The notes below the pieces were generated by a model, which saw only the letters and a list, made by a program, of their open reading frames with translations, ran no database searches and was not told the DNA's origin. Source: Aceticella autotrophica (GTDB lineage Bacteria > Bacillota > Thermoanaerobacteria > Thermoanaerobacterales > Thermoanaerobacteraceae). Taken from it: a DNA stretch of 64,000 nt. The DNA lies in NCBI RefSeq assembly GCF_017357865.1, contig NZ_CP060096.1, positions 1,723,001-1,787,000 of the forward strand. The letters are read 5' to 3'. Both the position numbers and the translations under genes were made by a program. Shown one piece after another: positions 18,019-38,416 of the stretch (position 1 is its first letter; every line of letters starts with the position of its first letter).

Positions 18019-18873
18019 TTAACGATAGCGAGCCCAATCGGCTACCTTTTGCCAGCTATTAGGGGTAACCAATATACGTCCTATAAAAAAGCACGGGTCT
18101 CCTTGATGATTTACCCTTGAATCTAATGTGAATATATAAGGTATTTGATGTCCTATAAGAATACGATCGGTTGAAGGTGTGCCAAATCCATAAGGATAAG
18201 CAAAATATTTAACCTTTATGCCAAGTTGTTTTTTAAAACTGTTTATTCCTTTTTCCGTATCAGCAGCAAAAAGCTTTTCTTTATCTGGAAGGAGGAAAAC
18301 AGGTTTTTTTGTTTGTGAATCAAAATAATGAAGGTCATAGGTATGAAGTCCAACAGTACAAAGGCCGCTCCCTACCATTTCTTTTAATTGATTCCATGTA
18401 CACATATTAAAGCCCTCCCATTCTTTTCCTGCTTGACCTGCAATAAAGAAAAGCATAAAAGGAATATGCTTTTCTTTAAGTACAGGGAAAGCATGCTTGT
18501 ATACACTAAGATCACCGTCATCAAATGTTATAAGTACAAGCTTTCCAGAAAATAATTTACGTCCGTTTAAAAAATCTTCGGCTTCCTGAGGTGTTACAAA
18601 GCGGACTCCCTGCTGCTTTAAATAATTTAATTGTTTGTTAAAATCCTTAGTACTTATAGCATAACGGGAAAGTTCTGATTCTGAAGGATAGAATAATTTT
18701 CCCCAGTGTAATACCCATGTAGGCAGTACCCTATGATAGCAGAGAACCACCAATCCATTTCCTTTTAAATTATTTGGGATTGTTAAAGTTTTTTCTTTTT
18801 GCGTAAAGCTGCAACCCGTAACAAAAATTGTTAAAAGTATTAAACTTCCAATAATCCTATTTAAATTCTTCAA
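18019..18873 (-). CDS. PgaB/IcaB-like polysaccharide deacetylase lipoprotein
   Basis: Secreted lipoprotein with a NodB deacetylase fold. The signal peptide ends in the lipobox FVTGC (Cys21). TFDDGD at 116-121 supplies the catalytic and metal Asp, a metal H-x4-H occurs in GLHTYDLHYF, and KYFAYPYGFG follows. TTG at 18873 is eight bases after AAAGGGG. It is the last gene behind a PgaC-type synthase and a PgaD-like protein, so the likely job is partial de-N-acetylation of poly-beta-1,6-N-acetylglucosamine at the cell surface. At 284 residues it lacks the C-terminal hydrolase domain of E. coli PgaB and resembles the compact staphylococcal IcaB layout. Confidence 0.82.
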   Translation of the reverse strand: MKNLNRIIGSLILLTIFVTGCSFTQKEKTLTIPNNLKGNGLVVLCYHRVLPTWVLHWGKLFYPSESELSRYAISTKDFNKQLNYLKQQGVRFVTPQEAEDFLNGRKLFSGKLVLITFDDGDLSVYKHAFPVLKEKHIPFMLFFIAGQAGKEWEGFNMCTWNQLKEMVGSGLCTVGLHTYDLHYFDSQTKKPVFLLPDKEKLFAADTEKGINSFKKQLGIKVKYFAYPYGFGTPSTDRILIGHQIPYIFTLDSRVNHQGDPCFFIGRILVTPNSWQKVADWARYR

Positions 18874-18913: not shown

Positions 18914-20170
18914 TTAGCTGTTTGCTACCTGTCTTTTCGGACTTTTCCACCTACCAACATTCTCAAGACTTCCGAAAAGGCCTTTTGGAGCTGTCCATAC
19001 TATCGTAATGGCACCAAATGCGAAAAAGAAAATAGGATACCATGGAATCCAAAAAAATGTACGATAAAGCTTTGGATCATACCTATGATTAAGAAACAAC
19101 GCTATTGCCATTTGAAAGATACATACTATAGAGATTAAAGCACCATACCATGCAGGAATCGGACTAAAACCGATCGGTGATAATTTTAAGAAATATGTAA
19201 TAAGCCAATAGATTGTTCCAAAAACAAAAACAAATGCCCAAAAGGTACTTAACACAAATTCCAAGTATGTCGGATAAAGATATCGCCATTTTAAATTTTT
19301 AAATATATCTTTATGTGTTCTCAAAAGATGCCACCCGCCTAATGCCCAGCGCCGCCTTTGTTTCCAATATTCCTTAAAAGTTGAAGGACATTGGATAAAA
19401 ACGGCTGCCTGCGGTGCAAACCATACCTCATAAAAATGGCGCTGTATCTTCCAAGTAATATCAATATCTTCTGTGGCTGTTTTAAAGGAAAAGCCGCCGA
19501 CCTCTTTAAGTACCTCTGTCCTATAAGCAGTGGCACATCCGGATACGGTAAGAACACGACCTATAACCCTCTGTGAACGTTTGATAAGCCCTATGATAGA
19601 AGCAAACTCTGCGGCTTGAAGTTTCTCTAAGATGCTAATACGTTTAACAGCTAATGGATTTCCTGTAACCGCCCCAAGCCTTGGCTGTGAGGAAAAAGGG
19701 GCTACAAGATATTTCAATGCATCAGGCGTAAGAATAGTATCAGCATCGATTACAACAGTTATTGAGGCTGTTACAACTGTCGCAAGAGCATAATTCAATG
19801 CTTGCGCTTTGCCGCAGTTTTTAGTAAGGCTAAGCAAGTGAAAATTAGGATTATCAGGGAGGAAGTGTCTTATTGCTGCTGCCGTATCATCCGTCGAGGC
19901 ATCATCAATAAAAATCACCTGATAATCAGGGTAATTCAATAACTGCAAGCTGGTGCATATGGAAGCAATACCAGCTGACTCGTTGTGGCATGGTATTAAT
20001 ATCGTTACAGGGGGCCAGAGATTGGGCCATTCTTTTTTTTCTTTATCAGGATTTCTCTCGCGCCGCCACCAAAAGTAAAATCCCAAAATAGACCAAACTA
20101 TACTTAATGCAAAGGGATACAAAAAAACATACCAGCCAAGAAACCACCAAATATTCCCGATTATTTTCAT
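18914..20170 (-). CDS. pgaC: Processive GT2 glycosyltransferase, poly-N-acetylglucosamine synthase type
   Basis: Membrane glycosyltransferase that polymerises and probably exports poly-beta-1,6-GlcNAc from UDP-GlcNAc. The 418 residues have one N-terminal membrane segment (about 8-35), then a GT2 domain: IPCHNE (59-64), IDDAST (88-93), IDADT (141-145), the catalytic TED (233-235) and the QxxRW motif QRRRW (271-275). Hydrophobic segments follow at about 295-320, 335-355 and 370-390. The start overlaps the stop of the PgaD-like gene (ATGA). Cellulose or hyaluronan synthase would be the alternatives; the PgaD- and PgaB-like neighbours favour PNAG. Confidence 0.85.
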   Translation of the reverse strand: MKIIGNIWWFLGWYVFLYPFALSIVWSILGFYFWWRRERNPDKEKKEWPNLWPPVTILIPCHNESAGIASICTSLQLLNYPDYQVIFIDDASTDDTAAAIRHFLPDNPNFHLLSLTKNCGKAQALNYALATVVTASITVVIDADTILTPDALKYLVAPFSSQPRLGAVTGNPLAVKRISILEKLQAAEFASIIGLIKRSQRVIGRVLTVSGCATAYRTEVLKEVGGFSFKTATEDIDITWKIQRHFYEVWFAPQAAVFIQCPSTFKEYWKQRRRWALGGWHLLRTHKDIFKNLKWRYLYPTYLEFVLSTFWAFVFVFGTIYWLITYFLKLSPIGFSPIPAWYGALISIVCIFQMAIALFLNHRYDPKLYRTFFWIPWYPIFFFAFGAITIVWTAPKGLFGSLENVGRWKSPKRQVANS

Positions 20171-20835
20171 CTGCCTTCCTCCTCAGAAAAAAATTGTTTT
20201 GATAACTTAGTGATAAACTCACCGTATAATCCACAGCCTATTATCTTTTCAAGCTTTTTTGGGGTGATGATTTCTTCCGCTGCTAAGATAATTTTCCCTG
20301 TCTCATCCTGAAGGTTCTCTTGTAGGGTTATGCCATGCAAAAGCACCTCATCAGGGTAGTATTCATGATTTTCTCTATTTTCAACTGATGCGGCTGTTTC
20401 TTTATAACTTGAATTGTCTGATAAAACTTTTAAATGGGGTGGATTGATTAGAATCCCTTTAGAGGTATCTATAATATTTTCCTGCCATAAAAGCTTTTGT
20501 GCTTTTAAAGTTGGAGGCAAAAGCTGCCTTTTGTTATGTTGGTAATAACGGTGATAGTGGTAGCGGGACCATAAAAGTGCACTGCACCAAAGCAATATAG
20601 CCCATAAAGTTGCGGCAAGAACTGCTGTAACAGTTGGATAAACTGCACTTGGTACAAAAAGCTCTTTCAACCATAACCGTGCAAGCAGATACCAGCCGAT
20701 CGCACCTAAAACCCATATAATAGATAGAAACAATAAGGTCCATGCGCCTAAGGTTGTGGTAATTATTAATAAGCGAGCCAATCTATTCTTAAGAGCATTG
20801 TAAGGGGTTGTTTTATTATTTGTATTAAGATTCAT
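20167..20835 (-). CDS. PgaD-like synthase partner protein
   Basis: 222 residues with two hydrophobic hairpins (about 22-52 and 67-89) followed by an aromatic-basic stretch (SRYHYHRYYQHNKRQ) and a soluble tail. This is the architecture of PgaD, the small inner-membrane partner that forms the c-di-GMP-binding PNAG synthase with PgaC in E. coli. It is much longer than the roughly 137-residue E. coli protein; the additional C-terminal 80 residues are of unknown role. First gene of the operon, overlapping pgaC by four bases. The assignment rests on topology and context and needs a profile search. Confidence 0.6.
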   Translation of the reverse strand: MNLNTNNKTTPYNALKNRLARLLIITTTLGAWTLLFLSIIWVLGAIGWYLLARLWLKELFVPSAVYPTVTAVLAATLWAILLWCSALLWSRYHYHRYYQHNKRQLLPPTLKAQKLLWQENIIDTSKGILINPPHLKVLSDNSSYKETAASVENRENHEYYPDEVLLHGITLQENLQDETGKIILAAEEIITPKKLEKIIGCGLYGEFITKLSKQFFSEEEGR

Positions 20836-20894
20836 AATATCACCTGTAAAATTTTTTGTTAAGTATCTCCAATCATTTTAGTTTATCATAGATA

Positions 20895-20940
20895 AATAAA
20901 TCAGGCAAGAAAAGAATTTTCTCTTGCCTGATTTATTTTT
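20895..20940 (-). terminator. Terminator between the beta-propeller gene and the pga operon
   Basis: AAATAAATCAGGCAAG and CTTGCCTGATTTATTT form a long inverted repeat around 20911-20920. It is AT-rich on both outer sides, so it may work in both directions. It should stop most transcription from the riboswitch-controlled gene before pgaD. Confidence 0.7.
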
Positions 20941-21016: not shown

Positions 21017-21913
21017 TTAATTTTTAATAATAACAATCGGATTAAGTACCGGCAATACATCACTTGCTATCTTGGATATCCTATTAGTAGTAATATCAGC
21101 AATATATCCTTCATACCTGCGTTCATCATTGCCGCGTTCTGAATTGAATGTCATATATTTATTTGTTCCAAGCACCCAATGGGGGTCTGCATCACTTACC
21201 CCTGGAGCATTAAGAGGCAACAATTCTTTATAAGTTGAATTTGGAAGAATACGGTAAATATCATCTTCATTATCATTGAATCTTCCAACGAAATATAAAC
21301 TTCCATCCTCTCCAAAAGCTGGGTACCAACCGGGTGCAACTGTCTGTTCTCTGCCATCGTCCCAAACGACTATTTGGCATTTGTCTCCTATCCCTCTTGT
21401 AAATGCTATCCTTCCATCAGGAGCAAAGTTTGGCGCCCATTCTTCAGTGTCGGATGTATTTGTAATTTCCCGTATAATAGAACCATCAAGCGCACATACG
21501 ACAATATCACCGTTTCTTTTGTATACAACCTTACTGCCATCCCAAGATAAACGTGGATCTTCTGAACGTGAAATTCCGTCTGACAGCATGCGTATATTTG
21601 ATAATTTATCTCTATTTACATCTGCTATATAAATCTGCCATGCTCCGGTTTTACTTGAAGCATAAACTATTCTTCGCCCGTCCCTTGAAACGTCAAAGTT
21701 TCCGCCATCACCTTTAATTAACGTTGCTACCTTACCCGTAGTAAAATCTTTTAATTTAATATCTCCTGGAAATCCGGCAAGATAAAATACCTTTGAAATA
21801 TTTCCGTATACAACATCTGTAGAATTTACATAAGTTTTAGCTTCATATGTATGAAAATTTATTATAAAAACAAAAAGAAATATTAGAAAAATTATTAAAA
21901 ATTTTTTAATCAT
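21017..21913 (-). CDS. Secreted TolB/WD40-like beta-propeller protein
   Basis: 298 residues from ATG 21913, chosen because GGGGGA precedes it and a signal peptide or membrane anchor (about residues 1-20) follows at once. The open frame runs further upstream but would translate the riboswitch. At least four PD40-type blade motifs are visible (DGRRIVYASS, DGSKVVYKRN, DGRIAFTRG, DGSLYFVGR), each followed by an aspartate-rich strand. Such propellers bind proteins or glycans and usually lack catalysis. The leader carries a c-di-GMP riboswitch and the pga operon lies immediately downstream, so a role in surface attachment or polymer handling is plausible but unproven. Confidence 0.75.
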   Translation of the reverse strand: MIKKFLIIFLIFLFVFIINFHTYEAKTYVNSTDVVYGNISKVFYLAGFPGDIKLKDFTTGKVATLIKGDGGNFDVSRDGRRIVYASSKTGAWQIYIADVNRDKLSNIRMLSDGISRSEDPRLSWDGSKVVYKRNGDIVVCALDGSIIREITNTSDTEEWAPNFAPDGRIAFTRGIGDKCQIVVWDDGREQTVAPGWYPAFGEDGSLYFVGRFNDNEDDIYRILPNSTYKELLPLNAPGVSDADPHWVLGTNKYMTFNSERGNDERRYEGYIADITTNRISKIASDVLPVLNPIVIIKN

Positions 21914-21919
21914 TCCATA

Positions 21920-21964
21920 TCCCCCTATATGAAGTTTCCCGTAGGAACCCCATATAGGAGTTCC
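21920..21964 (-). promoter_or_regulatory. Riboswitch expression platform masking the ribosome site
   Basis: Two exclusive pairings are visible on the minus strand. One is a hairpin with 8-base arms, 21964-21957 (GGAACTCC) with 21951-21944 (GGGGTTCC). The other pairs CTCCTATATG (21960-21951) with CATATAGGGG (21931-21922), covering the ribosome-binding GGGGGA. No T-run follows, so control is probably at translation initiation. Confidence 0.6.
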
Positions 21965-22042
21965 TGGCAACCTGGCAGCCATAGCGATTAATCGCCTTAG
22001 GCCCATAATTTTGCGTCCTTAGATTTCTCTAAGTTTGCCTTT
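21963..22042 (-). promoter_or_regulatory. Cyclic di-GMP class I (GEMM-I) riboswitch aptamer
   Basis: On the minus strand the aptamer shows GGCAAAC at its 5' side, a CTTAGA stem capped by a GAAA tetraloop, the invariant GACGCAAA, then CCTAAG and TATGG, which together are the canonical 11-nucleotide GAAA-tetraloop receptor. GGCTGCCAGGTTGCC closes the P1 helix with GGCAA. The order and spacing match the Vibrio Vc2-type fold. It sits about 50 bases before the ATG of the beta-propeller gene. The family binds c-di-GMP; whether binding turns expression on or off is not determined here. Confidence 0.93.
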
Positions 22043-22093
22043 TTCAGAATTAAATATTAAACTTATAATTTACATTTCTTTTTTATGTGTAAA

Positions 22094-22177
22094 TGGTGCG
22101 GGCGAAGGGATTTGAACCCCCACGTAAATTACACCAGATCCTAAGTCTGGCGCGTCTGCCAGTTCCGCCACGCCCGC
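22094..22177 (-). tRNA. tRNA-Leu (anticodon UAG)
   Basis: Minus strand; acceptor GCGGGCG pairs with CGCCCGC, the discriminator is A and CCA is encoded (22096-22094). The long variable arm fits class II Leu. The anticodon stem CCAGA/TCTGG encloses loop CTTAGGA, anticodon TAG. It lies about 50 bases upstream of the riboswitch with no clear terminator between. Confidence 0.95.
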
Positions 22178-22222: not shown

Positions 22223-22251
22223 ATTTTACATGAAATTTATCTAAATGTCAA
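22223..22251 (-). promoter_or_regulatory. Promoter of tRNA-Leu
   Basis: Minus-strand TTGACA (22251-22246), 17-base spacer, TAAAAT (22228-22223). The -35 box lies inside the last codons of murJ. Confidence 0.7.
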
Positions 22252-37702: not shown

Positions 37703-37778
<76 letters not shown>

Positions 37779-37796
37779 ACGGTAAATTAATGTTTC

Positions 37797-37872
37797 TGGA
37801 GCGGACAACGAGATTCGAACTCGCGACCCTTACCTTGGCAAGGTAATGCTCTACCAGCTGAGCTATATCCGC
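37797..37872 (-). tRNA. tRNA-Gly (anticodon GCC)
   Basis: Acceptor GCGGATA with encoded CCA and U discriminator; anticodon stem TTACC/GGTAA, loop TTGCCAA. Confidence 0.96.
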
Positions 37873-37881
37873 ATATTATTA

Positions 37882-37967
37882 TGGTGCGGGAGAAGGGACT
37901 TGAACCCATATGCCTTTTGGACACTAGAACCTGAATCTAGCGCGTCTGCCAATTCCGCCACTCCCGC
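37882..37967 (-). tRNA. tRNA-Leu (anticodon CAG)
   Basis: Class II tRNA with long variable arm; acceptor GCGGGAG, CCA encoded; anticodon stem CTAGA/TCTAG, loop TTCAGGT. Confidence 0.95.
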
Positions 37968-37992
37968 AAAAAAATCAAATTTCTCATAATGT

Positions 37993-38068
37993 TGGTGACC
38001 CATCCGCGATTCGAACGCGGGACACCCTGCTTAAAAGGCAGGTGCTCTGCCGACTGAGCTAATGGGTC
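37993..38068 (-). tRNA. tRNA-Lys (anticodon UUU)
   Basis: Acceptor GACCCAT with encoded CCA; anticodon stem CCTGC/GCAGG, loop CTTTTAA. Confidence 0.96.
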
Positions 38069-38078
38069 ATATATAACA

Positions 38079-38154
38079 TGGCTGGGATGGCAGGATTCGA
38101 ACCTACGAAATGCCAGAGTCAAAGTCTGGTGCCTTACCACTTGGCTACATCCCA
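38079..38154 (-). tRNA. tRNA-Gln (anticodon UUG)
   Basis: Acceptor TGGGATG, G discriminator, CCA encoded; anticodon stem CCAGA/TCTGG, loop CTTTGAC. GatCAB at 48-51 kb would amidate it if Glu is mischarged onto it. Confidence 0.96.
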
Positions 38155-38159
38155 CTAAA

Positions 38160-38237
38160 TGGGGTGGATAGTGGGACTCGAACCCACGACCTCCAGAGCC
38201 ACAATCTGGCGCTCTAGCCAGCTGAACTATACCCACC
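38160..38237 (-). tRNA. tRNA-His (anticodon GUG)
   Basis: Acceptor GTGGGTA with genome-encoded extra 5' G (38237) opposite C73, as expected for His; CCA encoded; loop TTGTGGC. Confidence 0.96.
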
Positions 38238-38261
38238 ATAGTAATCAAACTCTATTAAAAA

Positions 38262-38338
38262 TGGTGCGCCTGAAGAGATTCGAACTCCCGACACACGGAT
38301 TAGAAGTCCGTTGCTCTATCCAACTGAGCTACAGGCGC
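38262..38338 (-). tRNA. tRNA-Arg (anticodon UCU)
   Basis: Acceptor GCGCCTG with encoded CCA; anticodon stem ACGGA/TCCGT, loop CTTCTAA. Confidence 0.96.
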
Positions 38339-38342
38339 AGAA

Positions 38343-38416
38343 TGGAGCGGGTGATGGGAATCGAACCCACGTAGCTAGCTTGGAAGGCTAGAACTCTACC
38401 ATTGAGCTACACCCGC
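38343..38416 (-). tRNA. tRNA-Gly (anticodon UCC)
   Basis: Acceptor GCGGGTG, U discriminator, CCA encoded; anticodon stem CTAGC/GCTAG, loop CTTCCAA. First gene of the eight-tRNA operon. Confidence 0.96.

Follow-up and report, generated by a model that had tools for sequence, protein, structure and literature searches.

In Clostridioides difficile, c-di-GMP riboswitches of class I act as OFF switches of transcription (PMC11477304), and in Escherichia coli the same second messenger activates PgaCD (review PMC8461298). The locus described here lies in a 64-kb window (C1:1723001-1787000) of the single-contig, 2.27 Mb genome of Aceticella autotrophica, where a class I riboswitch, a tRNA-Leu gene, the gene for an exported beta-propeller and a set of pga-like genes are all on the minus strand. 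The reading preferred here, to which a probability of about one half is given, is that a transcript reading through from the tRNA gene carries a translational switch by which c-di-GMP turns the propeller gene on, the pga-like genes being expressed independently. The elements of the riboswitch-propeller unit are as follows.

21963..22049, minus strand: c-di-GMP-I riboswitch aptamer (Rfam cmscan, RF01051, 85.9 bits), its closing helix P1 formed by 22039-22035 with 21970-21966.
21944..21964, minus strand: anti-sequestor hairpin a/a', GGAACUCC-UAUAU-GGGGUUCC, which leaves the Shine-Dalgarno (SD) sequence free (from sequence, folding and three-copy pairing).
21922..21960, minus strand: sequestor helix b/b', CUCCUAUAUG / CAUAUAGGGG, which masks the SD (from sequence, folding and three-copy pairing).
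21921..21926, minus strand: SD sequence AGGGGG (from sequence).
21017..21913, minus strand: exported TolB-like beta-propeller of 298 aa (PD40, AlphaFold2 model, fold search).

The RNA at 22049-21963 belongs to the known c-di-GMP-I class. The original prediction of such an aptamer had named a GEMM-I covariance search as its check, and this returned a significant full-length match (E 1.5e-15, model positions 1-87 of 87), well above the RF01051 gathering threshold of 35 bits, with c-di-GMP-I the best-scoring member of its Rfam clan. The near-textbook motifs that had been claimed are all present, namely the GAAA tetraloop, the CCTAAG/CTATGG receptor, the GACGCAAA core and the GGCAA/TTGCC pairing of P1. 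The segment 21900-22049 has a folding energy of -47.9 kcal/mol (z = -4.9), which none of 200 shuffles equalled. An RNA of this sequence would probably bind c-di-GMP rather than cGAMP, with some doubt as to which residue answers to the selectivity position (G20 in Vc2). Signalling by c-di-GMP probably exists in this genome, since it contains five matches to GGDEF and one to PilZ.

The roughly 40 nt between P1 and the SD place the aptamer in leader position and contain the two helices that had been predicted to free or mask the ribosome site. Helix a/a' pairs 21964-21957 with 21951-21944, whilst b/b' pairs 21960-21951 with 21931-21922 and takes up the SD; they share one strand and are thus mutually exclusive. 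The propeller start codon is the ATG at 21913-21911; a 329-aa frame opening at 22006 in the open reading frame list is an unlikely start, beginning as it does within the aptamer. There is no T-run behind either helix in the window leader, which points to a translational type of switch. Three copies of the leader (the window copy, a second copy in the same genome and one in a family relative, G009) each show 100% pairing in both helices, and the a-b-a' segment is identical in all of them, with differences in the linker and spacer. No compensatory change was found in this comparison of three near-identical copies, so the argument for the helices is one of conservation rather than covariation. 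With one of the two exclusive and conserved structures pairing the SD, the predicted SD-masking translational switch is well supported. The platform is distinct from the terminator-like hairpins that stand behind many other aptamers of the family and order, and its core occurs twice among 398 genomes of the phylum, both times in this genome.

The second riboswitch of the genome (C1:482492-482579, 82.8 bits) precedes a gene for an exported protein that carries the domains Transglut_core and Cu_amine_oxidN1. This copy has the same platform and a signal-peptide start similar to that at the window locus, but the exported transglutaminase-like protein is unrelated to the propeller; leader and signal peptide may have moved together as a shuffled unit. 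The third copy, in G009 (a different genus), lies ahead of the same propeller. Since the propeller genes of the window genome and G009 are themselves 84% identical in DNA, with some identical stretches of 30 nt, identity of the platform alone is moderate evidence, and preservation of the exclusive helices appears the better argument. A truncated riboswitch, of whose aptamer just the 3' portion survives together with the platform, accompanies a broken propeller gene in another relative, G015 (L040 6246-7000, minus strand). Two other RNA elements were seen in relatives: a group II intron (G014 L015 1275-1367, minus strand; RF02001, 51.4 bits) near a c-di-GMP-I riboswitch and its terminator-like hairpin, behind both, and a HEARO RNA (G015 L040 12989-13220, 140.6 bits).

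The controlled gene encodes an exported propeller, as had been proposed, with an N-terminal hydrophobic helix, a match to the PD40 repeat and a TolB-like fold. Its AlphaFold2 model, built on an alignment of three rows, has a mean pLDDT of 79.7, and its nearest folds are TolB propellers, with TM-scores of 0.65-0.68 (query). The match to the TolB family (TIGR02800) covers the propeller part only and reaches 55.5 bits, against a curated cut-off of 343.15. The protein is very rare: among the 398 phylum genomes it occurs in the window's own only, and beyond that set it was found in three relatives of the family or order, namely G009, G021 and G015, the last as a pseudogene or remnants. Scans of named genomes gave no propeller at first and later a single distant match, on a Marinicaulis metagenome contig. 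In G021 (L039 8212-9537, minus strand) the propeller lacks a signal peptide and follows a T2SSG-type pseudopilin in frame, with one TGA between them, inside a type II/IV pilus-type cluster. Because of this context, a surface or pilus-related role may be inferred for the propeller by analogy.

The direction of the switch is less readily deduced. At computed equilibrium the closed form is preferred both by the free RNA and by RNA bearing P1. In both sister copies, formation of P1 and P2 tips the balance towards the open form, by 1.8 and 0.8 kcal/mol at 37 C, and the sign is unchanged at 55 and 65 C. For the window copy, P1 has an effect of at most 0.5 kcal/mol and of inconsistent sign (+0.5 to -0.4), so that an ON direction rests on the sister copies and on kinetics. 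The computed barrier between open and closed forms is 15-20 kcal/mol, which argues for kinetic control, during transcription. A further helix, UCCUG/CAGGA (UUCUG in the window copy), which is seen in the free folds of the sisters, is a competitor both of P1 and of the foot of a/a'.

These features suggest the following sequence of events. The GGAACUCC/GGGGUUCC hairpin would form first as the RNA is transcribed, and the ribosome site would stay open. Without ligand, P1 would be unstable and a putative helix between UUCUG (22049-22045) and CAGGA (21966-21962) would capture the foot of the hairpin, upon which the stable sequestor CUCCUAUAUG/CAUAUAGGGG would shut the ribosome site (OFF). With c-di-GMP bound, P1 would be locked beside the hairpin, the open form would be retained and the propeller translated (ON). 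An ON response to c-di-GMP is slightly favoured over an OFF response, at about 60:30.

The same translational switch working in reverse, with c-di-GMP turning the propeller off, is rather unlikely. In the window copy the 3' strand of P1 may extend the anti-sequestor (GGUU/AAAC, CC/GG), and a P1 locked by ligand would remove this extension and let the sequestor win. The extended hairpin is indeed the minimum-energy fold of window RNA truncated before the sequestor strand, P1 gives no preference for the open form in the window copy, and the C. difficile class I switches provide a precedent for OFF control (PMC11477304). However, the extension is missing from the folds of both sister copies, in which P1 stands alongside the open hairpin.

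The computed stabilities could also mean that the window copy is decaying and mostly locked OFF. There the sequestor surpasses the open form in stability by 5-6 kcal/mol, a larger gap than in the sisters (-5.9/-5.4 versus -2.6/-0.8 and -2.7/-1.9 kcal/mol at 37 C), the promoter-like site of the window copy is degenerate and a truncated copy exists in G015. Yet the aptamer, both helices and the propeller reading frame are all intact, and the propeller shares 81% identity with the G009 protein over 270 residues; decay is an improbable reading.

How the leader is transcribed concerns the sequence upstream of the aptamer, where an earlier reading of the sequence had overlooked a tRNA gene lying directly upstream without a terminator.

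22094..22177, minus strand: tRNA-Leu, anticodon UAG, CCA encoded (Rfam match).
22223..22251, minus strand: promoter TTGACA-17-TAAAAT of tRNA-Leu (11/12 consensus positions).
22065..22093, minus strand: degenerate promoter-like TTTACA-17-AATTAT (9/12, a chance-level score).

The tRNA ends about 55 nt before the riboswitch and P1, and no terminator was found between it and the propeller start in the window. In relatives, a terminator-like hairpin stands within 160 nt behind tRNA-Leu(UAG) at 20 of 21 loci, the remaining one being followed by another tRNA; a position behind a tRNA without a terminator is also unusual for this riboswitch class, and no case of a c-di-GMP riboswitch behind a tRNA gene was found in the literature searched. 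The sister riboswitches have TTGACA-17-TAAAAT directly upstream of the aptamer, whereas the window copy has only TTTACA-17-AATTAT. A sequence similar to that before the window tRNA, TTGACATTT..., precedes tRNA-Leu(UAG) in G005, G011 and G015. Given the missing terminator, the degenerate local promoter and the strong promoter before the tRNA, read-through appears likely, albeit unproven, and the promoter at 22251-22223 is the probable source of transcripts reaching the riboswitch. Transcription would start there and run through into the propeller gene, and once the 3' end of the tRNA had been processed, the propeller mRNA would begin with the riboswitch. The fuller picture of a composite tRNA-riboswitch-mRNA transcript, in which the riboswitch takes the place of the tRNA-Leu(UAG) terminator, the leader is transcribed from the tRNA promoter and owes its 5' end to tRNA 3' processing, is tentative, with a chance a little under even.

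A similar, somewhat less than even, chance is given to the riboswitch having a weak promoter of its own, be it TTTACA-17-AATTAT or another, with the tRNA a mere neighbour and the absence of its terminator incidental. The site at 22093-22065 is roughly where the sister promoters stand, but it lies 6-8 nt nearer the aptamer than these, its score is what chance would give, and incidental absence sits poorly with a terminator-like hairpin that is otherwise near universal behind this tRNA. In G015 the propeller remnant is likewise found downstream of tRNA-Leu(UAG), from which terminators and a chemoreceptor gene separate it, and in G009 no tRNA adjoins the riboswitch-propeller unit. An integrated element marked by a duplicated tRNA 3' end was considered and rejected: only tRNA-Leu(CAG) at 37885 matched, and no boundary was found. 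Elsewhere in the window (37703-38416), eight tRNA genes are clustered, and the identical eight occur in the same order 5.8 kb from tRNA-Leu(UAG) in G015 (L040 2148-2872).

Downstream of the propeller gene lie the following.

20896..20936, minus strand: strong terminator-like hairpin 3' of the propeller gene, with a short U tract (-23.2 kcal/mol).
20880..20908, minus strand: promoter-like TTGCCT-17-TAAACT ahead of the pga-like genes, matched in G009 by its counterpart TTGTGT-17-TAAACT.
20167..20835, minus strand: two-TM protein occupying the place of PgaD, to which no homology was detected; outside the riboswitch unit.
18914..20170, minus strand: PgaC/IcaA-like glycosyltransferase (386.6 bits to TIGR03937; 35% identity to E. 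coli PgaC); outside the riboswitch unit.
18019..18873, minus strand: IcaB/PgaB-like polysaccharide deacetylase (profile and domain matches); outside the riboswitch unit.

The original prediction had described these genes as a pgaD-pgaC-pgaB-like operon wired to c-di-GMP through the riboswitch. A PgaC-like synthase and an IcaB/PgaB-like deacetylase are there, both scoring below NCBI curated cut-offs (422.3 bits for the PgaC/IcaA PNAG synthase). The pgaD assignment finds no support in the sequence: the two-TM protein has no match to PF13994 at E 10 and a probability of 3.3% by hhalign against E. coli PgaD, and its G006 relative reaches 9.7 bits against a Pfam gathering threshold of 27. The wiring through the riboswitch is not supported either, given the hairpin after the propeller gene and a separate pga promoter conserved in G009. 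Nor does the propeller always travel with pga: they occur together only in the window genome and G009, the G021 locus has the propeller without pga, and pgaC-like genes, in some cases broken, occur in five relatives that lack the propeller.

A single c-di-GMP regulon of propeller and pga genes is therefore a poor candidate. The order riboswitch-propeller-pgaD-like-pgaC-pgaB-like is kept in both genomes, and the G009 hairpin lacks a T-run, making termination less clear there. Against this stand the hairpin and the conserved promoter between propeller and pga, and a translational switch alone would not reach genes with their own start. From the promoter-like site seen in the sequence, the pga-like genes would be transcribed separately, outside the control of this RNA, and a link between riboswitch and PNAG is not supported beyond neighbourhood. 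Staphylococcus PNAG is possibly independent of c-di-GMP (review PMC8461298), so a transfer of PgaCD activation to this system would be tentative. G009 also has, about 14 kb away from its riboswitch-propeller-pga genes, a 658-aa frame that matches both glycosyltransferase and PilZ (G009:C1:2737004-2738644).

In a Gram-positive lineage where the class I switches studied most closely are terminators, the locus would provide a clear translational example, and its three natural copies allow the workings of such a platform to be compared. Should read-through be confirmed, the 5' end of a riboswitch mRNA would here be produced by tRNA processing, and if the composite transcript is true, the supply of switchable mRNA would be tied to tRNA transcription. 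The pga-like genes resemble pgaBCD and icaADB in having a GT2 synthase and a deacetylase of the PgaC/IcaA and IcaB/PgaB kinds, but differ in their scores below the curated cut-offs, a membrane partner unrecognisable as PgaD and their own promoter-like site. The propeller shares its fold and PD40 repeats with TolB but scores far below the TolB cut-off, and no Tol-Pal function is claimed for it. The RNA itself is like other RF01051 (GEMM-I) members in its full-length aptamer, GNRA tetraloop, receptor, core and P1, and in standing ahead of an exported-protein gene; it differs from many relatives' c-di-GMP-I RNAs in having an SD-masking platform rather than a terminator-like hairpin, and from the typical setting of the class in lying behind a tRNA gene without a terminator. 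With the C. difficile class I switches (e.g. the flgB leader), it shares the aptamer class, a Gram-positive anaerobe lineage and an association with motility and surface genes; those switches are described as turning transcription OFF (PMC11477304), whereas this one lacks a terminator.
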